Part shown: positions 5,474 through 44,574 of the stretch, piece after piece | Layout of the letters: each line of letters starts with the position of its first letter | Position numbering within the stretch: position 1 is the first letter of the stretch | Assembly (NCBI RefSeq): GCF_030553305.1 | Contig: NZ_JARRAH010000001.1 | Coordinates: forward strand, 2,418,001 to 2,482,000 | From: Halomarina ordinaria | Lineage (GTDB): Archaea > Halobacteriota > Halobacteria > Halobacteriales > Haloarculaceae | DNA length: 64,000 nucleotides | Reading direction: 5' to 3' | The notes under the pieces: model-generated | Told to the model about the DNA's origin: nothing | Databases searched by the model: none | What the model saw: the letters and a program-made list of their open reading frames with translations, nothing else | Program-made: the position numbers and the translations under genes

Positions 5474-6597
5474 CCGGATTCGTCTTCTCCGAGAAACCCA
5501 TCCGTATCGCCCGCGGCGCCGGTCCCCACCTCTACGACGAGTCGGGGACGGAGTACCTCGACTTCGGGGCCTCCTACGCCGTGACGCCGACCGGCCACTG
5601 CCACCCCGACGTGGTGGCGGCGGCCACCGACCAGCTGGAACGGCTCATGTACGTCCAGGGGTCGTACCCGGTCGACGCCCGCGACGACCTCTACGACCGT
5701 CTCGCGGCGTGCGCGCCGGGCGACCTCGACTACACCTGGCTCTGTAACTCCGGGACGGAGGCCAACGAGGCGGCGCTGAAGTTCGCCCGCCACGCGACGG
5801 GCGACTCGAAGGTCGTCGCCGCGACCCAGAGCTTCCACGGCCGGACGATGGGGTCGCTCGCGGCGACCTGGAAGGGGAAGTACAAGCAGGGGTTCGAACC
5901 GCTCGCGGGCGGCTTCGAGTTCGTCGAGTACGGCGACGCCGAGGCGATGGCGGCCGCCGTCGACGACGACACCGCCGCGGTCCTGCTCGAACCCATGCAG
6001 GGCGAGGGGGGCATCAACCCCGCGCCCGACGGCTACCTCGCCGCCGTCCGGGAGGCCTGCGACGACCACGGCGCCGCGCTGATACTCGACGAGATACAGA
6101 CCGGCCTCGGCCGGACCGGCACCATGTGGGCCTGCGAGTCCCACGACGTGGTCCCCGACGTCCTCACCACGGCGAAGGGGCTGGCGAGCGGCCTGCCCGT
6201 CGGCGCCACGCTCTGTCGGGAGTGGGTCGCCGAGGACGCCGGCAACCACGGCTCGACGTTCAGCGGCGGGCCGGTCGTCAGCGCGGCGGCCGCCGCCACA
6301 CTCGACGTCATCGAGCGCGAGGACCTCGCGGGGCGGGCCGCCTCGATGGGCGACTACCTCGTGAGCGAACTCGACGCGGCCGTCGGCGAGGACGTCCGCG
6401 ACGTCCGCGGCGAGGGACTGATGCTCGGCGTCGAGGTGCGCCGCGGGGCCAATCGCCTCCTCCCGAAACTGGCGATGAACCACCAGATACTGGCGCTGCC
6501 GGCGGGGCGGACGGTCCTCAGGCTGCTCCCGCCGCTGGTCGTCGAGCGCGAGCACTGCGACGCCGTCGTCGAGGCCGTCGCGGAGGTGATGGGATGA
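5470..6597 (+). CDS. argD: LysW-ornithine aminotransferase ArgD
   Basis: This 375-residue class III PLP aminotransferase converts the LysW-bound semialdehyde to LysW-ornithine with glutamate as donor. The PLP lysine is Lys236 in TTAKGLASG, preceded by the LDEIQTGLGRTG motif (residues 206-217). NSGTEANEAALKFAR (about 93-107) contacts the cofactor phosphate. The ATG at 5470 overlaps the argB stop by 4 bp, and the gene ends in another 4-bp overlap with the hydrolase gene. Family and context agree. Confidence 0.95.
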   Translation: MTGFVFSEKPIRIARGAGPHLYDESGTEYLDFGASYAVTPTGHCHPDVVAAATDQLERLMYVQGSYPVDARDDLYDRLAACAPGDLDYTWLCNSGTEANEAALKFARHATGDSKVVAATQSFHGRTMGSLAATWKGKYKQGFEPLAGGFEFVEYGDAEAMAAAVDDDTAAVLLEPMQGEGGINPAPDGYLAAVREACDDHGAALILDEIQTGLGRTGTMWACESHDVVPDVLTTAKGLASGLPVGATLCREWVAEDAGNHGSTFSGGPVVSAAAAATLDVIEREDLAGRAASMGDYLVSELDAAVGEDVRDVRGEGLMLGVEVRRGANRLLPKLAMNHQILALPAGRTVLRLLPPLVVEREHCDAVVEAVAEVMG

Positions 6598-7661
6598 GCG
6601 TTCTCGCCACCGTCGGCGAACAGGAGGCGCGCGACCTGCTGCGGACGCTCGTGACGACGCCCTCTGTCAGCGGGAACGAGCGCGCCTGCGCGGACCACCT
6701 GGTCGCGTTCTTCGAGCGCCACGGCCGCGAGGCGTGGACCGACGAGGTGGGCAACGTCCACGCGCCCGCCGACGACAGCGTGCTGCTCACCTCCCACATC
6801 GACACCGTCCCGGGGGACATCCCCGTGGAAATCGCCCCCGCGGAGGGGAGCGACGAACCCGCCCTCTGGGGGCGCGGGAGCGTCGACGCCAAGGGGCCGC
6901 TCGCCTCGATGGCCGTCGCGGCCGTCCGCGAGGAGGTGAGCTTCATCGGCGTCGTCGAGGAGGAGCGCACCTCGACGGGCGCGCGTCACGTCATCGACTC
7001 CGGGCGGCCCGAACCCGACGCGCTCGTCAACGGCGAGCCCTCGGGGTCGAACGGCATCACGCTCGGCTACCGCGGCCTGCTCTCGGGGACGTACGTCGCC
7101 ACGAGCGAGTCGGGCCACTCCTCGCGCCCGGAGAACAACGCCATCCAGGACGCCGTCGCGTGGTGGGACCGCGTCACCGAGGCGTTCGAGGAGGACGAGT
7201 GGACGCCCGTCTTCGAGCGCGTCACGCCCAAACCCGTCGCCATCGAGGGCGGGACGAGCGACGACGGCCTCTCCGTCGAGACGACGATGGAGGTGCAGTT
7301 CCGCGTTCCCCCGGCGTACTCCGTCGAGGAGGTGCGCGAGCGGGCCGACGGCGAGTTGAACGGCGGCACCGTCCGCTGGCACGACTTCGTCCCGCCGGTG
7401 ATGACGAGCGCGCGCACCGAGGTGGCCCGCGCCTTCCGCGTCGCCATCCGCCAGCAGGACGCCGACCCCCGGATGCTGCGCAAGACCGGTACGAGCGACA
7501 TGAACCTCTTCGCCCAGGAGTGGGACTGCCCGATGGTCACCTACGGCCCGGGCGACTCGGACCTCGACCACGCACCCAACGAGCACCTCCCGCTGTCGGA
7601 GTACGACCGCGCGGTCGCCGTCCTCTCGGACGTCGCGGCCACCCTCAAGGGGGAGGCCTGA
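6594..7661 (+). CDS. argE: LysW-ornithine hydrolase (M20 family)
   Basis: This 355-residue M20-type metallohydrolase releases free ornithine from LysW, closing the carrier cycle (LysK-type, also named ArgE). Metal ligands are visible as His68 in TSHIDTVPG, Asp98 in GSVDAKGP and the Glu pair in VVEEERTS near 122-124. The C-terminal KTGTSDMNLF and GPGDSDLDHAPNEHL blocks fit the family. Its ATG overlaps the argD stop by 4 bp and its stop shares a base with the argF ATG. The name lysK is also used for this family. Confidence 0.92.
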   Translation: MSVLATVGEQEARDLLRTLVTTPSVSGNERACADHLVAFFERHGREAWTDEVGNVHAPADDSVLLTSHIDTVPGDIPVEIAPAEGSDEPALWGRGSVDAKGPLASMAVAAVREEVSFIGVVEEERTSTGARHVIDSGRPEPDALVNGEPSGSNGITLGYRGLLSGTYVATSESGHSSRPENNAIQDAVAWWDRVTEAFEEDEWTPVFERVTPKPVAIEGGTSDDGLSVETTMEVQFRVPPAYSVEEVRERADGELNGGTVRWHDFVPPVMTSARTEVARAFRVAIRQQDADPRMLRKTGTSDMNLFAQEWDCPMVTYGPGDSDLDHAPNEHLPLSEYDRAVAVLSDVAATLKGEA

Positions 7662-8560
7662 TGGCGACGGCCGCCCGGTCGGTCCGGGACGTGGACGACC
7701 TCTCGGCCGAGGAACTCCGCACGGTGCTCGACCGCGCGGCGAGCATGAAAGCCGGCGAGGGGGGGAGACCGCTCGCCGACCGGACGCTCGCCATGGTCTT
7801 CGAGAAGCCGAGCACGCGCACCCGCGTCTCCTTCGAGACGGGGATGACGCAACTCGGCGGCCACGCCGTCTTCCTCGGCCCGGACGACATCGGTATCGGC
7901 GGGCGCGAACCGGTCGCGGACATCGCCCGGACGCTGTCGTGTTACGTCGACGTCGTCATGGCGCGGCTGTTCGACCACGCCCACATCGAGGAACTGGCCG
8001 AGTACGCGACGGTGCCCGTCGTCAACGGTCTCACCGACGACGCCCACCCCTGCCAGACGCTCGCGGACCTGCTGACGATACGCGAGACCCTCGGCGGGTT
8101 CGACGGCGAGGTGGCGTGGGTCGGCGACGGCAACAACGTCGCCCAGTCGTTCGTCCTCGGCTGTGCGATGGCCGGCCAGTCGCTCACCGTCGCCACGCCG
8201 TCCGGCTACGGCATCGACGACGCCGTCCTCGACCGGGCGGCCGACCTCGGCGAGGCGCCGACGGTCACCGACGACCCCGCGGCGGCCGTCGAGGGGGCGG
8301 ACGCCGTCTACACCGACGTCTGGGTGAGCATGGGACAGGAGGCCGAGCGCGAGGAGAAACTGGCCGCGTTCGAGGGGTTCCAGGTGAACGCCGACCTCCT
8401 CGCCGGCACCGACGCGCTCGTCATGCACTGTCTCCCCGCCCACCGCGGCGAGGAGGTGAGCGCCGACGTCATCGAGAGCGAGCGCGCGGTCGTCTGGCGG
8501 CAGGCGGAGAACCGCCTGCACGCCCAGAAGGCGCTGCTCGCGTGGCTCCTCGACGCCTGA
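7661..8560 (+). CDS. argF: Ornithine carbamoyltransferase
   Basis: This 299-residue transferase makes citrulline from ornithine and carbamoyl phosphate. The carbamoyl-phosphate loop STRTR is at residues 51-55. The HPCQTLADL block near residue 128 and the ornithine-binding HCLPAHRGEE near residue 252 are intact. It overlaps the argE stop by one base (TGATG) and is the last gene of the arginine run. It is followed at once by a T-rich tract that may end the transcript. Confidence 0.97.
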   Translation: MATAARSVRDVDDLSAEELRTVLDRAASMKAGEGGRPLADRTLAMVFEKPSTRTRVSFETGMTQLGGHAVFLGPDDIGIGGREPVADIARTLSCYVDVVMARLFDHAHIEELAEYATVPVVNGLTDDAHPCQTLADLLTIRETLGGFDGEVAWVGDGNNVAQSFVLGCAMAGQSLTVATPSGYGIDDAVLDRAADLGEAPTVTDDPAAAVEGADAVYTDVWVSMGQEAEREEKLAAFEGFQVNADLLAGTDALVMHCLPAHRGEEVSADVIESERAVVWRQAENRLHAQKALLAWLLDA

Positions 8561-8575
8561 CCCGCCGACGCGAAC

Positions 8576-8584
8576 GCTTTTTTC
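8576..8584 (+). promoter_or_regulatory. T-rich tract: possible argF terminator and dipeptidase promoter
   Basis: A GCTTTTTTC run lies 16 bp after argF. T-runs of this kind terminate archaeal transcription. The same A/T stretch is centred 26-27 bp before the GTG at 8606, where a TATA box for a leaderless transcript belongs. Both roles are inferred from position. Confidence 0.4.
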
Positions 8585-8605
8585 CGACCCGAGGCTCGTA
8601 CGAGC

Positions 8606-9682
8606 GTGTCCACAGTCCCCGTCCTCGACGGTCACAACGACCTCCTGTTTCGCCTCTGGAGCGACGACGCCGACCCCGTCGCGGCCGTCGCGGGCGGGCG
8701 CGAGGGCCACCTCGACCTGCCGCGGATGGAGGCGGGAGGGTTCCGCGCCGGCCTCTTCGCCGTCTACGTTCCCGACGCGCGGCGGCTGGACCCGCCCTCG
8801 GGGACGGGCGGGGGCTACTCCATCCCGCTCTCGGACCCCCTCGACCCCGGGCGCGCCCGGCGAATCACCGACGAACAGCTCGCCCTGCTCCACCGGCTCG
8901 TCGAGGGGTGCGAGGGGCTCCGCCTCGTCCGGACGGCGGCGGACCTCGACGCCTGCCTCGCGGGGGAGGCCGTCGGTGCCGTCGCCCACGTCGAGGGCGC
9001 CGGCGGTATCGCGCCCGACCTCTCGAACCTCGACGCCCTCGTCGGGGCCGGCGTCCGGTCCGTCGGGCCGGTCTGGAGCCGTCCCAACCACTTCGCCCAC
9101 GGCGTCCCCTTCGAGTTCCCCGCCTCGCCGGACGTCGGCCCGGGGCTCACCGACGCGGGGCGGGCGCTCGTGCGCGCCTGCGAGGAGCGGGGCGTCCTCG
9201 TCGACTGCGCGCACCTCAACGCGGCGGGGTTCTGGGACGTCGCCGACTGCACCGAGGCGCCGCTCGTCGTCTCGCACGCGGGCGTCCACGCCCTCTGTCC
9301 CGCCTCGCGCAACCTGACCGACGAGCAACTCGACGCCGTCGCCGAGAGCGGCGGGCTGGTGGGTATCACCTTCGGCGTGGGGGCGCTCGACCCGGAGGGG
9401 CGGTTCGGCCACGACGTTCCCCTCGACACGCTCGCCGACCACGTCCTCTACGTCGCCGAACGCGTGGGGGTCGAGCACGTCGCGCTCGGTTCGGACTTCG
9501 ACGGGGCGAGCGTCCCGAGCGAGGTGGGGGACGTGTCGGGCCTCCCCCGGTTGCTCGACCACCTGCGCGAGCGGGGGCTCTCCGAGCGCGACGTCGAGCG
9601 GGTCGCCGCGGGGAACTGGCGGCGCGTCCTCGACGAGGTGTGGCGTGAAGGGGAGGGCGGCCGAACGAGGAGGGTCGAGTGA
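8606..9682 (+). CDS. Membrane dipeptidase-like hydrolase (peptidase M19)
   Basis: This 358-residue zinc dipeptidase of the renal-dipeptidase (M19) family is expected to cleave dipeptides or related amides. The N-terminal DGHNDLLFRLW holds the first metal His/Asp pair. HVEGAGGI near residue 128 carries the bridging Glu, and the VVSHAGVHALC and GSDFDGA blocks carry later ligands. It has no signal peptide, so it is probably cytoplasmic. The GTG at 8606 was chosen because the T-rich box sits at the leaderless-promoter distance. It is separate from the arginine genes, and the natural substrate is unknown. Confidence 0.87.
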   Translation: MSTVPVLDGHNDLLFRLWSDDADPVAAVAGGREGHLDLPRMEAGGFRAGLFAVYVPDARRLDPPSGTGGGYSIPLSDPLDPGRARRITDEQLALLHRLVEGCEGLRLVRTAADLDACLAGEAVGAVAHVEGAGGIAPDLSNLDALVGAGVRSVGPVWSRPNHFAHGVPFEFPASPDVGPGLTDAGRALVRACEERGVLVDCAHLNAAGFWDVADCTEAPLVVSHAGVHALCPASRNLTDEQLDAVAESGGLVGITFGVGALDPEGRFGHDVPLDTLADHVLYVAERVGVEHVALGSDFDGASVPSEVGDVSGLPRLLDHLRERGLSERDVERVAAGNWRRVLDEVWREGEGGRTRRVE

Positions 9683-9686
9683 GGAC

Positions 9687-10151
9687 CTACCGCGCGAACA
9701 GCGGGTAGCTCGCGCCCAGGACCGCCCCGTAGACGAGGTGGCCGACGAGGCTCATCGGGTCGACGTTCGGGAGCGGCGGGACCATCGGCGCGCCGACGGC
9801 GCCCAGCCAGACGGGCATCACCAGCACCGCGAGGACGACCCACAGGACGACGCCGTAGGCGAGGCCGAGGGCGAGCGACCGGGCGACGGTCGTCTCGACG
9901 CCGGCCGCGCGGACGAGCGCCGCGAACCCCACCCCCAGGACCGCGCCGTGGGCGACGTGGACGACCCAGCCCGCGAGGCCGCCCTCCAGGCCGTACAGCG
10001 AGGGAATCGCCACCTCGATGACGGGCGTCATCTGGACGGTGAGGAGGACGCCCATGACGGCACCCGCGAGGATGCCGGCGAGGACGCCCGCGCGCCACGC
10101 GTCGTTGGTCGGCTGCTGTACCGGGGTTTCGGTGCGTACCTGTTGGCTCAT
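9687..10151 (-). CDS. Small integral membrane protein, four predicted helices
   Basis: This 154-residue hydrophobic protein has four likely transmembrane segments: AGVLAGILAGAVMGVLLTV, GWVVHVAHGAVLGVGFAAL, LALGLAYGVVLWVVLAVLV and LVGHLVYGAVLGASYPLF. Gly- and Ala-rich helices of this sort occur in widespread haloarchaeal membrane families of unknown role. The start MSQQVRTETPVQ at 10151 was preferred over longer frames because an AAAGC/GCTTT box lies about 27 bp upstream. It is convergent with the M19 gene, only 4 bp away. No function is assigned. Confidence 0.75.
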   Translation of the reverse strand: MSQQVRTETPVQQPTNDAWRAGVLAGILAGAVMGVLLTVQMTPVIEVAIPSLYGLEGGLAGWVVHVAHGAVLGVGFAALVRAAGVETTVARSLALGLAYGVVLWVVLAVLVMPVWLGAVGAPMVPPLPNVDPMSLVGHLVYGAVLGASYPLFAR

Positions 10152-10272
10152 CGCGCCTGTCGATTCGGTAACGAGGGGCAAAGCGCACCCTCGGATGCGT
10201 GTCCGTGTCTCACACACGCACATCCGAGCTATGATTATACGGGGGCGTTTACTCACGCCCGGTGAACACCCG

Positions 10273-10509
10273 GTGAGCACGGTCAGGATTTCGGCGGGCG
10301 AGTGGACGAGCGACGAGGTACTGCGGGCGCTCGCCGACGGCCAGCGGGTCGTCGTCGAGACGGAGTTCCTCGGCGAGCAACACGAGGTGACGCTGCGCTG
10401 GGACGGAGAGACGTACTACTGCGACACGCCGACGCGACTGCACAAGCACGCGACCGAGGAGGAGATGCGCGTCTGCATCCGGAAGATGGGCTACGCCGCC
10501 GACACGTAG
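10273..10509 (+). CDS. Conserved-looking 78-aa protein, unknown function
   Basis: This is a 78-residue soluble protein with the pattern VRISAGEWTSDEVLRALADGQRV, then a short beta-rich stretch (TLRWDGETYYCDT) and an amphipathic end (TEEEMRVCIRKMGYA). Two cysteines lie 20 residues apart without a metal motif. A GTG start at 10273 is used because the protein pattern begins there; an in-frame ATG at 10231 would add 14 residues. I do not recognise the family. It stands between a divergent membrane-protein gene and a small regulator. Confidence 0.65.
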   Translation: MSTVRISAGEWTSDEVLRALADGQRVVVETEFLGEQHEVTLRWDGETYYCDTPTRLHKHATEEEMRVCIRKMGYAADT

Positions 10510-10545
10510 GGCGGGGTTTATCGGTCGTTCGGGCGTAGTGCGTGC

Positions 10546-10935
10546 ATGGACGCCGAGCCGAGTCCTGAACGGTTTCGTGAGCTGATGCTCGACGAGGAAC
10601 CAGCGTTCGCGGACGTCCTCTCGTGTGTCTTCGGCATCCAGCGCCACGAGAGCACCACCTACCTCGCACTGCTGGACAACCCCGGGAGCACCGTCACCGA
10701 ACTGGCCGAGGTGGTCGACCGCGACCGGTCGAACGTCAACCGGTCGCTCGCCACGCTCCGGGAGAAGGAACTCGCCGAGCGCCGACGGCGCCTGCTCGAC
10801 GGCGGCGGCCACGTCTACCAGTACACCGCCACGCCGCTCCCCGACGCCAAGCGCCTGCTCCACGAGACGCTCGACGAGTGGGCCGCCTACGTCCACGAGC
10901 GCATCGACGAGTTCGGCGACGCGATGGAGGGTTGA
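10546..10935 (+). CDS. Winged-helix transcriptional regulator (TrmB/MarR-like)
   Basis: This 129-residue DNA-binding protein has a helix-turn-helix at about residues 45-80 (STVTELAEVVDRDRSNVNRSLATLREKEL). A charged wing (RRRRLLDGGGHVYQYTATP) and a C-terminal amphipathic helix for dimerisation (LLHETLDEWAAYVHERIDEF) follow. The cysteine in LSCVFGIQRHES is a possible redox or ligand sensor, but this is only a suggestion. A TTTAT box at 10516-10520 lies about 27 bp before the ATG, indicating a leaderless mRNA. The targets are unknown. The gene is convergent with the phosphodiesterase gene. Confidence 0.85.
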   Translation: MDAEPSPERFRELMLDEEPAFADVLSCVFGIQRHESTTYLALLDNPGSTVTELAEVVDRDRSNVNRSLATLREKELAERRRRLLDGGGHVYQYTATPLPDAKRLLHETLDEWAAYVHERIDEFGDAMEG

Positions 10936-10941
10936 GGGCCC

Positions 10942-11958
10942 TCAGCTGCGCTCGCCGAACGCGAGCAGGTTCGAGTAGTCCCCGATGATGCCGTCGACCC
11001 CCGCGTCGACGAGTTCTTGCGCCTGGTACCACGTCGCGACGGTGTAGACGTTCACGGCCCGTCCCTCCTCGTGGGCGACGGCCAGCAGGTCGGTCTCGGA
11101 CCACGGTCCCTCGGTGTAGTACGGGTCGCCGTAGAACGGCGTCCCGCGGACCATGTTGTACGGCGGGTGGACCGCCTCGGCGTCGTAGCGGCGGGCGATC
11201 GCCAGGCCGTCCTCGATGGAGTCCCAGAGCAGCGGCGCGACCGGCAGGTCGGGCGCGAGGTCGCGGACGGTCGCCAGGGCGGCCTCGTAGAACGAGGAGA
11301 CGAGCACGTCGTTTCGACACGCCTCGATGGCGTCGAGCGCTCGCTCGGTGAACGGACGCCACAGCCCCTTCTGGGCGGCGAGCGCATCCGAATCGAGGCT
11401 CTCGGCGAAGCGGAGGTCGAGCGACCCGGGGTTCTTGAACTCGACGTTCACCGCGACGTGCGGCGGGATGGCGTCGAGGACCGTCGAGAGCAGCGGTACC
11501 GTCTCGCCGCTCCCCAGAACCTCCGCGTCGAGGACGGTCTCCGTCGGCGTCTCCCAGACCAGGCCCTCGACGTCGGTGAGGCCGCGCTCCCCTCCGTCGC
11601 GCTCGGCGAGACCGTCGTCGTGGAAGACGACGACGTCGCCGTCCGCCGTCGGGACGATGTCTATCTCTATCATGTCTGCGCCGCGCCGGGTGGCACCGGG
11701 GCCGTGGCCGCCGCGGGCGGCGAGCTCGACGGCGCCGACGGTGTTCTCGGGGTACTGCCCCGCGAAGCCCCGGTGGGCGATGAGCGCCGGGGCGTCACCG
11801 TACCAGTCGCGATCCGTGTCGCCCCGGTCGTCGTGACCGTCCTCTTCTTTCCCTCCGTAGCCACCGCGCGCCACGGCGCTCCCCGCGCCGAGGGTCGCCG
11901 TCGCCGCCGTCGTTCCGATTCCTTTCACGAACGTCCGCCGGTCGATGTCTGGTCCCAT
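10942..11958 (-). CDS. Exported glycerophosphodiester phosphodiesterase (GDPD)
   Basis: This 338-residue protein starts with a twin-arginine signal (DRRTFVKGIG followed by an Ala-rich hydrophobic segment ending near ALA/SAVARGG). It is therefore exported folded through the Tat system. The catalytic region has LIAHRGFAGQYPENT, EIDIVPTADGDVVVFHDD and VNVEFKNP, the GDPD active-site blocks that coordinate metal and hydrolyse glycerophosphodiesters. The C-terminus NVYTVATWYQAQELVDAGVDGIIGDY completes the TIM barrel. A strongly AT-rich promoter lies just upstream. The substrate could be glycerophospho head groups of archaeal lipids or wall polymers. Confidence 0.9.
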   Translation of the reverse strand: MGPDIDRRTFVKGIGTTAATATLGAGSAVARGGYGGKEEDGHDDRGDTDRDWYGDAPALIAHRGFAGQYPENTVGAVELAARGGHGPGATRRGADMIEIDIVPTADGDVVVFHDDGLAERDGGERGLTDVEGLVWETPTETVLDAEVLGSGETVPLLSTVLDAIPPHVAVNVEFKNPGSLDLRFAESLDSDALAAQKGLWRPFTERALDAIEACRNDVLVSSFYEAALATVRDLAPDLPVAPLLWDSIEDGLAIARRYDAEAVHPPYNMVRGTPFYGDPYYTEGPWSETDLLAVAHEEGRAVNVYTVATWYQAQELVDAGVDGIIGDYSNLLAFGERS

Positions 11959-11980
11959 TGCGACCGAAGGCGCTCCGTGC

Positions 11981-12027
11981 GGCGTATTAATTATTTGTAT
12001 TCTAACTATTTAGAAATTATATTTACT
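11981..12027. promoter_or_regulatory. AT-rich promoter region of the GDPD gene
   Basis: This A/T-rich stretch stands out against the GC-rich background. TATTAATTAT at 11982-11991 sits about 27 bp before the minus-strand ATG at 11958, matching a strong leaderless promoter. The plus-strand thrC start at 12131 is served by a separate weak box (TTTCAT near 12102). Confidence 0.5.
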
Positions 12028-38255: not shown

Positions 38256-38996
38256 TCAGTGTTCTCCCGGGTCCGGGAGGTCGCCCGGCAGGCCGTCGGC
38301 GTCGAGGCCGCCCACGCGACAGAGGTCCCACAGCGTGGCGAGGTTGCTCGTCACCGTCGGGAGGGTTCCCCACAGGTCGCCGACCGCGCCGAGCGTCGGG
38401 TAGTTCGTACAGGAGACGAACAGCGCGTCGGCGTCGGGGGCGCGGTCGAGGACGCGGCGGGCCTGTTCCCGGGCGTCTCCCGGGGTGAGCCGGCCGATGG
38501 CGGTGTTGCGCTCGATGCCGCGACCGTCGAGTCGCACGACGTCGAACCCCGCGTCCGCGAGGTAGTCGCGTTCGCGCTCGTTCAGGTCGTCGGTGTAGGG
38601 GGTCGCGACGGCGACGGTCCGGGCCCCCAGTGCCGAGAGGAGTCGGCGGACCGACAGCGCCGTGGCGACCGCCGGGGCGTCCGCGGCGTCGCTCAACCGG
38701 GCCTCGAGGTCGACGTCGAAGCCGTGGCCGTGGACGAGGCTGCCGGTAGTGCAGGCGTAGGCGACGGCGTCCACGCCGGCGTGGCCCAGACGCTCGCCGG
38801 CCGCGACGGTTCCCTCGGCCATCGCGTCCAGCGCCTCGGCGGTGACGTCCACCAGCGGGACCCGCGCGGCGTGGACCGAGGCGCCCGCCGGCGCCCAGGC
38901 CGCGAACTCCGGTTCGACCGTCGTGTTCGAGGAGGGGACGACCGCCCCGAGGCGGGGTCGCTCCCCCCGAGCCGTCGGGTCCGTCCGCCCGGTCAC
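38256..38996 (-). CDS. AMDase / maleate isomerase-like enzyme (Asp/Glu racemase superfamily)
   Basis: This 246-residue enzyme has two catalytic-type cysteines, Cys82 in VAYACTTGS and Cys196 in FVSCTNYPT. The N-terminal GAVVPSSNTTVEPEF is typical of arylmalonate decarboxylases and maleate cis-trans isomerases. These enzymes share the Asp/Glu racemase fold, as do hydantoin racemases. It is the last gene of the hydantoinase operon; its ATG overlaps the hyuB stop by 4 bp. The likely role is isomerisation, racemisation or decarboxylation of the pathway intermediate. The substrate cannot be read from the sequence. Confidence 0.87.
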   Translation of the reverse strand: MTGRTDPTARGERPRLGAVVPSSNTTVEPEFAAWAPAGASVHAARVPLVDVTAEALDAMAEGTVAAGERLGHAGVDAVAYACTTGSLVHGHGFDVDLEARLSDAADAPAVATALSVRRLLSALGARTVAVATPYTDDLNERERDYLADAGFDVVRLDGRGIERNTAIGRLTPGDAREQARRVLDRAPDADALFVSCTNYPTLGAVGDLWGTLPTVTSNLATLWDLCRVGGLDADGLPGDLPDPGEH

Positions 38997-40633
38997 GCTC
39001 CCTCGCCCCCGTCGGTGACTTTGCCGTCGGCCCGGTCGCGCGCTCGCGCCTCCGGGTCGCGCTCGGCCGGGTCGCCGTGGCCGCCGCCGCCCGGCGTCAG
39101 GACGGTGACCGTCGTCCCGGCGGTCACGTCGAGGGACGTCTTCGCGGCGACCGACTCGCCGTCGACGCGGTTCTCGCCACGCGCCCCCGAATCGCCGCCA
39201 GCGAGACCCGCGGGGGGAATCCGGCGACGTTCGGTGAGCAGCGAGACGGTCGCGTCCGCCTCGACGGTGACGGTCCGTTCGAGGCCGAGGCCGCCGCGGT
39301 GGCGGCCGTCGCCGCCGCTGTCGGGACGGAAGCCGTAGCGTTCGACGCGCAGCGGGTACGCGACTTCGAGAGCCTCGACCGGCGTGTTGAGCGTGTTGGT
39401 CATGCCGACCTGCACGCCGTCCATGCCGTCGCGCGTCGGGCGGGCGCCGAAGCCGCCGGCGATGGTCTCGTAGTAGGTGAACGACCCCGTCCGACTGCCG
39501 ACGACGAGGTTGTTCATCGTCCCCTGCCCCCCGGCGGGGACGCGGTCGGGGACCGCCTCGGCGAACGCCGCGAGGACGACGTCCGTCAGGCGCTGGCTCG
39601 TCTCGACGTTCCCGCCGACGACGGCCGCCGGCGGCCGCGGGTCGACCAGCGACCCCTCGGGCGCCTCGACCGTGACCGGGTCGTAACAGCCCTGATTGGG
39701 GGGTATCTCGGGGTCGGTGACGCAGCGGACGACGAAGTAGGCGGCGCTCTTCGCGACGGCGAGCGGCGCGTTGACGTTGCCCGGCACCTGGTCGGCGGTC
39801 CCGTCGAAGTCGACGGTGAGCCGTCGGCCGTCGACGGTGACGGCCACCTCGACCGGTATCTCGACGGCCGCCGGGTCGACGCCGGAGGCGTGTTCGAGGA
39901 CGCCGTCGCCCTCCATGACGTCGCGGGCGCGGTACGTCCCGTCCGGCAGGGCCTCGATTTCGGCCTCGATGCGCTGTCGCGAGTAGTCGATGACGGCGTC
40001 GAACGCCGCCCGCACCCGGTCGCCGTGTTCGGAGAGCAGGTCGTCGAGGCGCGCCTCGGCGCGCTCGTTGGCCGCTATCTGCGCCTGCAGGTCCGCGCGG
40101 CGCTCGTCGGGCGTGCGGACGTTCGCGAGCAGCACCGACTGGACGTCCTCGTTCACCTCGCCCCCGTCCACGAGTCTGACCGGCGGCAGGCGCAGTCCCT
40201 CCTGGTATATCTCGCGCGACCCGGCGGGCATGCTTCCGGGGGACATCCCGCCGACGTCGGCGTGGTGCGCGCGCGAGACGGCGTAGCCGAGTATCTCGCC
40301 GCGCGGGGCGAGCGGCGAGACGAGCGTCACGTCCGGCAGGTGGGTCCCGCCGTCGAACGGGTCGTTGACGACGAAGACGTCGCCCGGCCGGGGGTCGCGT
40401 TCCCTAACCGCGCTCACCGCCTCGGGCATCGCCCCGAGGTGGACGGGGATGTGTTCGGCCTGTGCGACCATCCGGCCGTCGGCGTCGAACAGCGCCGTCG
40501 AGCAGTCCTGGCGCTCCTTGATGTTCGGGGAGTACGACCCCGTGATGAGCACCTGTCCCATCTCCTCGGCGACGCTCTCCAGCTGGTTGCGGAGTATCTC
40601 GAGCGTGACGGCGTCGAGCCCGTGGTCGCTCAT
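38993..40633 (-). CDS. hyuB: Hydantoinase/oxoprolinase subunit B
   Basis: This 546-residue HyuB-family protein is the partner of HyuA in ATP-dependent opening of hydantoin- or 5-oxoproline-type rings; acetone carboxylases use relatives. It begins VTLEILRNQLESVAEEMGQVL. Family blocks are SPNIKERQDCSTALFDADGRMVAQAEHIPVHLG, VNDPFDGGTHLPDV and GGMSPGSMPAGSREIYQEG. The C-terminal DSGGDGRHRGGLGLERTV and TPGGGGHGDP complete the fold. The ATG at 40633 overlaps the hyuA stop by 4 bp. The acidic end DRADGKVTDGGEGA is variable. Confidence 0.93.
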   Translation of the reverse strand: MSDHGLDAVTLEILRNQLESVAEEMGQVLITGSYSPNIKERQDCSTALFDADGRMVAQAEHIPVHLGAMPEAVSAVRERDPRPGDVFVVNDPFDGGTHLPDVTLVSPLAPRGEILGYAVSRAHHADVGGMSPGSMPAGSREIYQEGLRLPPVRLVDGGEVNEDVQSVLLANVRTPDERRADLQAQIAANERAEARLDDLLSEHGDRVRAAFDAVIDYSRQRIEAEIEALPDGTYRARDVMEGDGVLEHASGVDPAAVEIPVEVAVTVDGRRLTVDFDGTADQVPGNVNAPLAVAKSAAYFVVRCVTDPEIPPNQGCYDPVTVEAPEGSLVDPRPPAAVVGGNVETSQRLTDVVLAAFAEAVPDRVPAGGQGTMNNLVVGSRTGSFTYYETIAGGFGARPTRDGMDGVQVGMTNTLNTPVEALEVAYPLRVERYGFRPDSGGDGRHRGGLGLERTVTVEADATVSLLTERRRIPPAGLAGGDSGARGENRVDGESVAAKTSLDVTAGTTVTVLTPGGGGHGDPAERDPEARARDRADGKVTDGGEGA

Positions 40634-42642
40634 CGCGACCCCTCCGTGAGCACGACGGTGCCGTCGGGTTCGACGCTCGCGGTCCACGCCGGCGGGACGA
40701 CGACGGTGCTCTCGTCCTGTTCGAGGACGGCCGGTCCCGCCACCGCCGACCCGGGCGCGAGTCGCTCGCGGTCGTAGACGGGGGTCTCGTGGGCCTCGCC
40801 GCCGAAGTGCGCCTCGCGCTCGCCCACGCGGGCGTCGCCGGGCGCGTCGTACGCCACCTCGACGTCCGGACGGTCGACGGTCGCCTCCGCCCGGAGGTTG
40901 ACGAGGTCGACGGCCTCGTCCATCCGGTAGCCGTAGGTCGTCTCGTGGGCTGCGTGGAAGCGCTCCGCCACGGCGTCGGCGTCGAACGGCCGGTCGACGG
41001 GGACCGTCAGCTCGAAGCTCTGGCCCGCGTAGCGGAGGTCCGCTCGGCGGGTCACGACGGCGCGCTCCGGGTCGCTGCACTCCCCGCGGACGCCGCTCTC
41101 GAGGTCGTCGAAGGCCGACTCGACGGCCGCCGGGTCGACCGTCGCCAGCGCCTCGCGGCGGGTCCGCACGGCGTCGTGTTTCTCGTCGGCGACGAGCAAC
41201 CCGTACGCCGAGAGCACCCCGCAGGCGCGGGGAACGACGACGGTCCCGACGCCGAGGTCGGCGGCGAGCGCCGCAGCGTGCATCGGCCCCGCGCCGCCGA
41301 AGGCGACGAGGCCGAAGTTCCGCGGGTCGTGGCCGCGTTCGAGCGTGACCGCCCGGATGGCCCGCGTCATCGTCGCGTTGGCGACCCGGTAGGTCCCCCG
41401 GGCGGCCGCGAGCGGGCCGTCGAGCCCCGCCTCGTCCGCGAGGTCGGCCAGCGCGTCGCGCGCCGCCTCGACGTCGACGGAGAGTTCGCCGCCGAGGCTC
41501 GTGGACGCCCCGATGTAGCCGAGGACGACGTTCGCGTCGGTGACCGTCGGGACGGTCCCGCCCCGCCCGTAGCAGACCGGGCCGGGGTCGGCGCCGGCGG
41601 AGGCCGGTCCGACGCGGAGGGCGCCGCCGGCGTCGACCCACGCCTCGCTCCCGCCGCCGGCACCGACGGTGGTGACGTCCACCATCGGCGTGCGGATGGG
41701 TCGGTCGCCGATGCTGGCGTCGGTGGTGCGCTCGACCTCGCCGTCGCGCACGAGGCTCACGTCGCTCGACGTGCCGCCCATGTCGAAGGTGACGAGACCG
41801 GCGAGGTCGCGCCCCTCGGCCAGCGCGCCGACGCTCGCGCGCGCCCCGACGACGCCCGCCGCCGGCCCCGACATGCAGGTCCGAACCGCGTGCTCGCGGA
41901 CCGTCCCGGCGTCGGTGATGCCGCCGTTGGCCTGCATGATGCTCGGTTCGGGGACGCCCGCCGCGGCCGCCCGCTCGACCAGTTTCCCGACGTAGGCGTC
42001 GATGGCCGGCGTGACGTAGGCGTCCGCGACGGTCGTCGAGGTGCGCTCGTACTCGCGGAACTCCGCGAGTACCTCGTGGGAGACGGAGACGGGGACGTCG
42101 AGTTCCGCCTCCAGCACCTCGGCGACGGCCGCCTCGTTCTCCGGGTGGGCGTAGGCGTGGAGCAGGCAGACGGCGACCGCCTCCGCGCCCGACGCGCGGA
42201 CGTCCTCGGCGACGGTCCGGACCGCCTCGAGGTCGACGCGTCGCTCGACGCCGTCGACGGTCGCCCGCTCGTCGACGGTGAACCGCCGCCGACGCGGCAC
42301 CAGCGGTTCGGGTTTCTCCGCGTCGAGGTCGTACAGCGAGGGGCGCTCCTGTCGCCCGATTTCGAGCACGTCGCGGAACCCCTCGGTGGTGACGAGCGCC
42401 GTCCGCGCGCCGTCGGCCTCGAGGAGGGCGTTGACGGAGACGGTCATCGCGTGGGCGAAGTCGTCGAGCGCGTCCGGGGCGACGCCGGCGCGCTCGCAGG
42501 CCTTCTCGATGCCGTCCATGACGCCGACGCTCTGGTCGGCCGTGCTCGGCACCTTCGCGGTGACGAGGTCGGCTCCTCGGAGGAGGACGACGTCGGTGAA
42601 CGTCCCGCCGACGTCGACGCCGACGGCCGTGCGGTCGGTCAT
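40630..42642 (-). CDS. hyuA: Hydantoinase/oxoprolinase subunit A
   Basis: This 670-residue HyuA-family ATPase has an ASKHA-type nucleotide fold. The N-terminal VGVDVGGTFTDVVLL and the later FDMGGTSSDVSLVRDGE are the phosphate loops, and GVLSAYGLLVADEKHD closes the site. IMQANGGITDAGTVREHAVRTCMSGPAAGVVGA is a family mark. It hydrolyses ATP to drive ring opening with HyuB. Its ATG directly abuts the transporter stop with no gap. Which cyclic amide is used is not visible in the sequence. Confidence 0.94.
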   Translation of the reverse strand: MTDRTAVGVDVGGTFTDVVLLRGADLVTAKVPSTADQSVGVMDGIEKACERAGVAPDALDDFAHAMTVSVNALLEADGARTALVTTEGFRDVLEIGRQERPSLYDLDAEKPEPLVPRRRRFTVDERATVDGVERRVDLEAVRTVAEDVRASGAEAVAVCLLHAYAHPENEAAVAEVLEAELDVPVSVSHEVLAEFREYERTSTTVADAYVTPAIDAYVGKLVERAAAAGVPEPSIMQANGGITDAGTVREHAVRTCMSGPAAGVVGARASVGALAEGRDLAGLVTFDMGGTSSDVSLVRDGEVERTTDASIGDRPIRTPMVDVTTVGAGGGSEAWVDAGGALRVGPASAGADPGPVCYGRGGTVPTVTDANVVLGYIGASTSLGGELSVDVEAARDALADLADEAGLDGPLAAARGTYRVANATMTRAIRAVTLERGHDPRNFGLVAFGGAGPMHAAALAADLGVGTVVVPRACGVLSAYGLLVADEKHDAVRTRREALATVDPAAVESAFDDLESGVRGECSDPERAVVTRRADLRYAGQSFELTVPVDRPFDADAVAERFHAAHETTYGYRMDEAVDLVNLRAEATVDRPDVEVAYDAPGDARVGEREAHFGGEAHETPVYDRERLAPGSAVAGPAVLEQDESTVVVPPAWTASVEPDGTVVLTEGSR

Positions 42643-43872
42643 CTACAGCCCCCCCACGAGTCCGAGCAGGTCCTGGATGGCCGTCCAGAGGCTCCGGAGA
42701 CCGAGCAGGACGACGACGAGCGTGACGACCCCACCGAGGACGTTCTGTGCGGTCGAGTTGGCGTAGTCGCCGAGCGTCGTGCGGTCGTTCATGACGACGA
42801 TGAGGAAGACGGCGATGATGGGCAGGAGGATGCCGTTGGCCACCTGCGCGAACACGATGGCCGGGACGGGGTCGAACCCGACGGCCGAGAAGACGACGCC
42901 GACGGCGAGGATGGTCCCCCAGACGGCCCGGAACCGCGTCGACTTCAGGTCGGCGTCCCAGCCGAGCGCTCCCGCCGTGGCGTACGCCCCCGCGAGGGGG
43001 GCGGTGGTCGCGCTGGTGAACCCCGCGGCGAACAGCCCGATACTGAAGAACAGTTTCGCGTAGGTGCCCGCGACGGGTTCGAGCTGGTCGGCCATCTGGC
43101 CGACGTCCTCCAGTTCGGTCCCCGTCGGGAAGACGGCGGCGGCGGTCACGAGGATGGCGAGCGTGATGAGGCCGCCGACGACGATGGAGAGGACCGTGTC
43201 GGTCCGGCACTCCCCGAGTTCGTCGGGGCCGGCCCACCGCTCCTGGACGCTGCTCGCGTGGAGGAAGAGGTTGTAGCCGACGACCGTCGTCCCGACGAGC
43301 GCGATGATGGGGAACACCGACCCCTCGGGGGCCGACGGGACGAACCCGGCGGCGAGCGCCCCGAGGTCGGGACCGATGAGTATCGCGTCGATGAGGAACG
43401 AGACCCCCATGACCGCGACGAGGGCGACCAGCACCCGCTCGATGAGCTTGTACCGCCCCGTCCAGAGGAGCACCCCGCCACACAGTCCCATTATCGGCCC
43501 CCAGACGGACGCACTGATGCCGGTGATGGTCGCGAGACCGGCCGCCCCGCCGAGGATGTTCCCCGTCTCGTAGGCCGCCGTCCCGACGCCGATGGCGCTG
43601 ACGACGAGCGCCACGCTCGCGTAGCGAGCCACCGGGTTGTCGAAGCGGTTCCGGAGCGCCTCGCCCAGTCCCTCGCGCGAGACGAGACCGAGGCGCGCGC
43701 TCATCTCCTGCAGGACGACGGTCGCCACGATGGCGAAGACGATGGTCCAGACGAGCGCGTAGCCGAACCGCGCACCGGAGACGCTGGCCGTCGTGACCGT
43801 CCCCGGCCCGATGAACGCGGCCGCGACCATCGCGCCCGGCCCGACCGCCCGTATCCGTTCGACGAGACTCAC
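42643..43872 (-). CDS. NRAMP-fold transporter lacking metal-site residues
   Basis: This 409-residue membrane protein has about 11 helices and the NRAMP overall pattern. The first helix has AAAFIGPGTVTTASVSGARFG (GPGT at residues 22-25), where metal transporters have DPGN. Helix 6 has LVGTTVVGYNLFLHASS (VGY at about 198-200), where they have MPH. The Asp, Asn and Met used to bind metal are therefore all replaced. It is the first gene of the hyuA-hyuB-isomerase unit, which suggests an organic substrate. An SD-like GAGGTG six bases before the GTG at 43872 decides the start over a GTG 9 bp earlier. Confidence 0.85.
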   Translation of the reverse strand: MSLVERIRAVGPGAMVAAAFIGPGTVTTASVSGARFGYALVWTIVFAIVATVVLQEMSARLGLVSREGLGEALRNRFDNPVARYASVALVVSAIGVGTAAYETGNILGGAAGLATITGISASVWGPIMGLCGGVLLWTGRYKLIERVLVALVAVMGVSFLIDAILIGPDLGALAAGFVPSAPEGSVFPIIALVGTTVVGYNLFLHASSVQERWAGPDELGECRTDTVLSIVVGGLITLAILVTAAAVFPTGTELEDVGQMADQLEPVAGTYAKLFFSIGLFAAGFTSATTAPLAGAYATAGALGWDADLKSTRFRAVWGTILAVGVVFSAVGFDPVPAIVFAQVANGILLPIIAVFLIVVMNDRTTLGDYANSTAQNVLGGVVTLVVVLLGLRSLWTAIQDLLGLVGGL

Positions 43873-44015
43873 TGCGACCACCTCTCGTGTGTCATGTTCT
43901 CACGAACCGGTATCGGACGGAAAAACGTTGTTATGACCGGTGAGTACCGAAACTGCGAGACGTATGAACGGATGTGAACCCGTATGCACGACGAACGTCG
44001 TTCGACGCCGTCCAG

Positions 44016-44574
44016 TCACTCCGTGTCCGGTCGCCGTTCCGTGACGAGCACCTTCGAGACGCTCTCCTCGACGTCGAGTTCGAACGGCAGGTCGCGGACG
44101 CTGCGCTCGATGAAGCGCGTCATGAACCAGCGCAGCGAGGCGGAGGGGAAGACGACGTGGTAGGTGTCGCCGTCGGTGGCGCGCACCGAGAGGAAGCCAC
44201 AGAACGAGAGCCACTCCAGCAGGTCGCCGGCGTCGGCGAACCGGCCGGCGTACTCGCGGGCGTGGTAGTCGGAGACGGTGTCGGCCGCCGCGAGGAACGC
44301 CGGGTCGGGCGCGCCCGTCTTCGTCCTCGACGTAGTCCAGGAAGCAGTGCAGGAAGTCCACGTCGAGGAGGACGTGTTCGCCCCCCGAGAGCATCCGGTG
44401 GTAGGCCGCGAGGTTGGGGCCGGCGTCGACGCTCGCCGCGTCGAAGTTGGCCGCGTAGAACGTCAGCGCCCGGCGGATGACTTCGCTCTGGCCCTCGTCG
44501 GTCCGGTCGGTGAGGTCGGCGAGCGCCCGCGCCGCGTCCTCGTCGAGGGAGACGGTCACCCGTTCGGTCGGCAT
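44016..44574 (-). pseudogene. Ribbon-helix-helix regulator with a single-base frameshift
   Basis: The first 87 residues begin with a CopG/RHH domain (MPTERVTVSLDEDAARALADLTDRTDEGQSEVIRRALTFYAAN), then GGEHVLLDVDFLHCFLDYVEDEDG. The original frame then turns into Arg/Pro-rich nonsense that runs to 43900. The sensible continuation (PDPAFLAAADTVSDYHAREYAGRF, then WLSFCGFLSVRATDGDTYHVVF and FELDVEESVSKVLVTERRP) is one base out of frame and stops at 44016-44018. Removing one G of the GGG on the minus strand (44314-44316) restores a 185-residue protein. It lies upstream of the hydantoinase operon on the same strand, so it is a candidate regulator. The shift may be a sequencing error or a recent mutation. 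Confidence 0.82.

Follow-up and report, generated by a model that had tools for sequence, protein, structure and literature searches.

A probable 5-oxoproline carrier of the NRAMP fold in Halomarina ordinaria, encoded next to HyuA-HyuB

Background and summary

The NRAMP-fold protein described here probably imports 5-oxoproline (pyroglutamate), or a lactam acid very close to it. It is encoded on a stretch of 64,000 nucleotides from Halomarina ordinaria (NCBI RefSeq assembly GCF_030553305.1, contig NZ_JARRAH010000001.1, positions 2,418,001 to 2,482,000), which is called the window below. The protein would be a secondary carrier, related to Nramp and with the LeuT fold of the APC superfamily. Its neighbours HyuA and HyuB would then open the ring of the imported compound with ATP, yielding glutamate. 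Support for this comes from genomic context and from residues.

In databases these proteins go under the name of divalent metal transporters. A recent preprint likewise holds that Nramp-related proteins are likely metal transporters, most of their specificities being unknown (PMC13060092). Among the papers searched, none links NRAMP to hydantoinase.

Transporter gene and operon

The transporter ORF spans 42643-43881 on the minus strand and opens at an upstream GTG, 43881 (a 412-aa ORF). The favoured start is the GTG at 43872. This one agrees with where relatives start, which is conserved (MSL/MSI...), and so the coordinates given in a preliminary description of this DNA, 42643-43872 with no strand stated, look right. 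The region also holds many long ORFs on the opposite strand, which were rejected as high-GC artefacts.

By profile as well as by LeuT-type fold, the gene encodes a complete, full-length protein of the NRAMP superfamily. The match to Pfam Nramp (PF01566) covers residues 29-376 with E=1.4e-99, at 334 bits where the gathering threshold is 29.8. The NCBIfam MntH subfamily model yields 186.5 bits against a cut-off of 430, and TIGR01197 yields 96.4 against 272.5, so the protein falls outside both. The protein does clear the cut-off of the looser NF037982 'Nramp_1', with 97.3 bits against 50, and this is why RefSeq carries the label 'divalent metal transporter'.

Together with hyuA, hyuB and a racemase/isomerase-type gene, all on the minus strand, the transporter forms one tight operon. 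It ends at 42643, and hyuA (ATP-dependent hydantoinase/oxoprolinase subunit A, 40630..42642, Pfam Hydantoinase_A 3.8e-88) starts at 42642, the base right after the transporter stop codon, which leaves a gap of 0 bp. The ATG start of hyuB (hydantoinase/oxoprolinase subunit B, 38993..40633, Pfam Hydantoinase_B 5.3e-206) overlaps the hyuA stop by 4 bp. Then follows a gene of the Asp/Glu racemase - AMDase - maleate isomerase superfamily (38256..38996, Pfam Amdase 1.8e-34), again with an overlap of 4 bp. This is the order that had been described earlier: hyuA without a gap, then hyuB, then an AMDase-like gene.

Upstream of the transporter, also on the minus strand, lies a gene for a ribbon-helix-helix (RHH, CopG-type) regulator (44031..44574, Pfam RHH_1 6.4e-8). 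Such a gene is found just upstream of the transporter in 35/38 haloarchaeal loci, and it may regulate the transporter-hyuAB unit. In the window, tblastn reads it in two frames with a break near 44300-44321, and it is intact in relatives. The cause is a true frameshift or else a mistake in the assembly.

According to Pfam, the Hydantoinase_A (N, central and C) and Hydantoinase_B domains of the window HyuAB are full length. These are the domains of the HyuAB/OPLAH/caprolactamase family, but the scores stay under the cut-off of every NCBIfam equivalog reached. The best NCBIfam models are for caprolactamase, at 492.8 and 263.4 against a cut-off of 1000, so the pair does not classify as CapAB. The nearest solved chain to HyuA is 7hk5 (named N-methylhydantoinase, E 4.5e-137), followed by 6yra (5-oxoprolinase/hydantoinase). 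HyuAB enzymes use several cyclic amides, and the nearest chains and models differ; the enzyme therefore does not fix the lactam.

The AMDase-like protein scores 116 bits on the NCBIfam arylmalonate decarboxylase model, below its cut-off of 225. It carries two catalytic-type Cys, in the motifs ACTTG and SCTNY. Arylmalonate decarboxylase has a single catalytic Cys.

Site residues and fold

Window residues were placed by alignment with DraNramp, BfraNramp and EleNRMT. The broken-helix motif of TM1 is GPGT (residues 25-28, counted from GTG 43881; 43798..43809, minus strand) in place of DPGN, with Gly25 at the canonical Asp and Thr28 at the canonical Asn. On TM6, the broken-helix motif V201-G202-Y203-N204 (43270..43281, minus strand) replaces MPH-x. 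Val201 and Tyr203 stand at the canonical Met and His, and the motif becomes TxxVGY as against A/CxxMPH. Both of these losses had been noticed in the preliminary description, and the alignment agrees. A further one had been missed: in the TM3 motif E105-T-G-N108 (43558..43569, minus strand), Asn108 takes the place of the canonical Glu (Dra E134 / Bfra E116). None of the canonical ligand positions (G25, T28, N108, V201 and Y203) holds an acidic residue.

The clade is near-invariant here, so this is not chance. Across 123 clade members, G25 is found in 122/122, V201 in 123/123 and Y203 in 123/123, and residue 108 is Asn in 116/123 and Asp in the other 7. VGY had been put forward as the motif in place of MPH, but this form is haloarchaeal only. 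Since bacterial members read VPY, the change from Pro to Gly is a lineage mark and lies outside the ligand loss. The idea that VGY marks hyuAB was also tried and rejected: both bacterial HyuAB-linked members read VPY.

The rest of the fold is kept, as had been claimed. Next to the Pfam match, an AlphaFold2 model (51 sequences) reaches pLDDT 93.3 and pTM 0.91. In this model the break in helix 1 falls at residues 24-25 and that in helix 6 at 200-201, which are the motif sites. The nearest solved folds are Nramps, of which DraNramp is best at Z 48.6, and the next are the APC amino-acid carriers AdiC, AgcS and ApcT, at Z 28-31.

Distribution and tree

The window-type transporter is carried by 39/145 haloarchaeal genomes, where it scores well apart from their other Nramp branches. 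A scan of public genomes, in which loci were picked by sequence only and neighbourhood was ignored, yielded 80 loci, spread over haloarchaea, Bacteroidota, Bacillota, Actinomycetota, Pseudomonadota and SAR324.

Whether GPGT/VGY-type sequences group together was a check suggested earlier. They do: in a maximum-likelihood tree of 95 rows, the window type is one clade (SH-aLRT 98), apart from the canonical Nramps (100), NRMT and the YcsG branch (100). The haloarchaea are one group (99) nested among pxp-linked bacterial members, and Natroniella acetigena is the sister of this group (92). The deep order of the tree is untrustworthy, given a quick search, an arbitrary root and long branches in several places.

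The window's host encodes two other NRAMP proteins, both non-canonical, one of the GPAT type and one of the GSGS/LWPN type. Their genes are at 746591-747595 (L075) and 487449-488492 (L074) of G000:C1. A DPGN/MPH Nramp was not found in this genome.

Neighbour genes across genomes

A second suggested check was whether the clade always sits beside hyuA/hyuB. For haloarchaea this nearly holds, with hyuA and hyuB directly downstream in 51/53 sampled loci. Haloferax mediterranei and H. gibbonsii (L097 and L108) are among the species that have the transporter-hyuA-hyuB unit. For bacteria it does not. There the partner is pxpABC, which encodes the known ATP-dependent 5-oxoprolinase, in 50/65 sampled loci. 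Many of the bacterial loci come from Flavobacteriaceae, so the counts are not those of independent events. Linkage was taken to mean at least two of pxpA, pxpB and pxpC, the usual order being transporter-A-B-C, and the names of pxp and hyu partners were confirmed on examples by Pfam and NCBIfam. Other bacterial members have a fused HyuA-HyuB of ~1250 residues (2/65), an arginase-family gene (5/65), a DUF2848 gene (1/65) or no relevant partner (7/65). On other Nramp branches, the pairing with oxoprolinase/hyuAB was seen in 0/38 loci.

The clade's ring-opening partners come in three architectures: PxpABC, fused HyuA-HyuB and split HyuA/HyuB. Both fused loci fall inside pxp-linked Bacteroidota, and this makes the swap there independent of the one in haloarchaea. 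The Natroniella locus has pxpA, D-glutamate cyclase and pxpBC around the transporter, and D-glutamate cyclase is also present at the locus of a Streptomyces clade member. The product of D-glutamate cyclase is 5-oxoproline.

Two loci are arranged differently. A plasmid of Natrononativus amylolyticus (L070 / L098) has the transporter and the RHH regulator without hyuAB; pxpABC is found elsewhere in this genome (L253). In a SAR324 MAG (L123, 9439-10143), a DUF2848 gene comes after the clade member and there is no oxoprolinase, so a new partner enzyme is possible.

A close HyuA (mostly 56-80% identical) is present in 101/145 haloarchaeal genomes, mostly without a nearby transporter and in unrelated contexts. 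It is found in 38/39 transporter-bearing genomes versus 63/106 others (Fisher p 1.4e-6), and the lone transporter-bearing genome without it (G047) has pxpABC. PxpA occurs in 17/145 haloarchaeal genomes and is absent from that of the window. Over these 145 genomes, pxpA and the transporter show neither mutual exclusion nor association (Fisher p 0.24). Mutual exclusion of pxpABC and close HyuA was not seen in haloarchaea either (Fisher p 0.78). The replacement of one enzyme by the other is therefore argued from operons and the tree, and not from presence and absence. The transporter lies beside pxpABC in 0 of 15 haloarchaeal pxp loci examined. Around hyuAB without this gene, the scanned neighbours (MATE, lactate permease, sugar transferase etc.) included no recurring alternative transporter.

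TM3 residue 108 can be set next to the partner enzyme. Asn stands there in every oxoprolinase-linked member (104/104), and Asp in every arginase-family-linked one (6/6). The latter fall at two points of the tree, one being a Bacillales group and the other haloarchaeal L071, and so represent two events at most. The arginase-linked Bacillales (L135, L137, L138, L139 and L146, from Domibacillus, Bhargavaea, Sporosarcina and Shouchella) read xGDL on TM3, and often have a gene for a YheO-type PAS-HTH regulator. Presumably this subgroup carries a different substrate, a guanidino or amine compound. L071 (G077, 8621-11981) is a divergent haloarchaeal member with AGDL on TM3, beside an AMDase/racemase-type gene. 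Its arginase-type neighbour is HutG-like and on the opposite strand. A different substrate is likely for this member.

Relation to known systems

Metal branches with solved structures all keep the Asp of TM1: the canonical site is DxxN-A/CxxM, that of NRAT (Al) is DxxN-AxxT and that of NRMT (Mg) is DxxG-TxxA/T (PMC8806188). The window protein has the fold of canonical MntH/Nramp proteins (DraNramp, BfraNramp, SLC11A1/A2; Z 43-49, 20-27% identity) and keeps their TM6b His (H208). However, DPGN, MPH and the TM3 Glu are lost, and the neighbourhood has no link to metal. The Mg2+ protein EleNRMT is similar in fold (Z 45.7, 28% identity) and starts TM6 with TxxA versus TxxV in the window. It has the TM1 Asp and the TM3 Glu, where the window clade has Gly and Asn. 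The window protein, with GxxT-TxxV, does not fit the NRMT site and is on a separate branch. Judging by sequence, we infer that the window clade does not carry metal.

The preliminary description also drew an analogy with YcsG of Bacillus, and this goes part of the way. YcsG, PxpT and MumT (B. subtilis, C. glutamicum, A. baumannii) share with the window clade the NRAMP fold, the loss of the Asp/Asn/Met ligands, xGN on TM3 and GY on TM6. Their operons contain pxpABC, often with D-glutamate cyclase, and YcsG-type genes are in pxp operons in 8/8 Bacillales loci. Branch and motif, however, are not the same. The YcsG branch reads GPGF/LAFNxGN/VGGY and is its own clade (100, versus 98 for the window clade), with the window protein outside it. 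On the clade model it scores about 95-130 bits, versus >470 for nearly all window-clade members. Among solved-structure sequences B. subtilis YcsG had no match; the comparison by fold does list 9a52, an integrative model of YcsG-FabL.

What has been published on the YcsG branch is in conflict. In C. glutamicum, growth on 5-oxoproline requires PxpT, which is 50% identical to YcsG (PMC13274462). MumT of A. baumannii was reported to be a Mn importer, from ICP-MS, Mn-toxicity resistance and complementation (PMC5050338), and YcsG/MntG was reported to raise cell Mn (PMC10448178). The A. baumannii MumT-type protein (L266, NZ_CP077849) is of the YcsG type, with GPGFLTQT and VGGY. Its operon, at 5992-10481, encodes PxpA, D-glutamate cyclase and PxpB/PxpC-like proteins. 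From this gene content, what was published as a 'urea and manganese' operon has the look of one for 5-oxoproline, and the Mn claims rest on proteins with non-canonical sites in 5-oxoprolinase-type operons. These claims concern a separate branch, yet they are the main reservation about 5-oxoproline as the substrate of the window protein.

The APC carriers AdiC, ApcT and AgcS share the LeuT-type fold with the window protein at about 10-15% identity, and there is no membership at the sequence level. In AdiC, the carboxylate of the substrate is bound via backbone amides of the helix-breaking GSG on TM1 (PMC5877779). The G-P-G of the window protein appears to sit at the structural place of this GSG, which is suggestive.

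Proposed function

External 5-oxoproline would enter the cell via the window carrier by alternating access. The unwound GPGT segment of TM1 may hold the carboxylate of the substrate through backbone amides, as GSG does in APC carriers, and Asn108 (TM3) and Tyr203 (TM6) would line the pocket. Once inside, the lactam would be opened by HyuAB at the expense of ATP to give glutamate. The two-Cys racemase/isomerase-type enzyme would handle the D/L form and may supply the right stereoisomer. In halophilic methanotrophs, 5-oxoproline is a compatible solute, at up to 0.4 M (PMC13274462), and as such it should be available in brine.

The earlier suggestion of an organic cyclic amide, and not a metal, is thus the best-supported reading on residues and clade pairing. 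It can now be narrowed to 5-oxoproline; what falls away is hyuAB as the general partner. The pairings are best read as a change of partner enzyme, from PxpABC to HyuAB, with the substrate of the carrier staying 5-oxoproline. Such a change beside a 5-oxoproline carrier predicts that haloarchaeal HyuAB is a 5-oxoprolinase.

A broader version of this appears somewhat less secure, though we still lean towards it. The clade would be a second, undescribed NRAMP-fold branch, in Bacteria and Archaea and near the canonical metal carriers, that carries 5-oxoproline. PxpABC, as its partner enzyme, would have been swapped at least twice: haloarchaea would have split HyuAB in its place, and Bacteroidota fused HyuA-HyuB. 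Haloarchaeal HyuAB would be an unrecognised archaeal 5-oxoprolinase. TM3 residue 108 would set specificity, Asn for the lactam acid and Asp in the arginase-linked subgroup.

It is conceivable, but rather unlikely, that the acquisition of the gene by haloarchaea came with a change of substrate. The protein would then carry a different cyclic amide, namely hydantoin, N-methylhydantoin, an imide or a caprolactam-like lactam, to be opened by HyuAB and racemised by the product of the racemase-type gene. Hydantoin operons classically include a racemase, HyuA is closest to the N-methylhydantoinase chain 7hk5 and to caprolactamase models, and VGY is limited to the haloarchaeal branch, as is split HyuAB with a racemase-type gene. 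Yet the TM1, TM3 and most TM6 positions are identical to those of the pxpABC-linked members, and the occurrence of close HyuAB in 101/145 genomes, mostly transporter-free, is easier to square with salvage of a metabolite found everywhere than with use of a rare one.

A slightly smaller chance goes to a metal importer with a rebuilt site, one that provides Mn2+ or Mg2+ for ring-opening enzymes dependent on either metal. The Mn phenotypes of MumT and YcsG speak for this, as that branch also lacks DPGN/MPH (PMC5050338, PMC10448178), but the two proteins belong to a different branch. The arginase-family partners at 5 bacterial loci are metalloenzymes, and the loose Nramp equivalog cut-off is passed, whereas MntH-type models remain far under theirs (186.5 versus 430). 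Against metal there is further the lack of any acid at the canonical ligand positions, where every metal branch of known structure has retained the Asp of TM1. The regulator conserved next to the transporter is an RHH protein and not of a known metal regulator family, and pxp enzymes are not known to depend on a private Mn supply. It is highly improbable that the protein is a non-transporting relic, or a sensor kept to regulate hyuAB: the LeuT fold is full length and of high confidence, both broken helices are intact, the pocket residues are invariant across two domains of life, and the clade is paired with alternative enzymes.

Meaning

If the clade carries an organic acid, one of the nearest relatives of metal importers has kept or regained an amino-acid-type site. 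This would bear directly on the origin of metal selectivity in the APC superfamily. It would also provide a function for HyuAB in about two thirds of the sampled haloarchaeal genomes, and it would sharpen the conflict over whether YcsG and MumT move Mn or 5-oxoproline.
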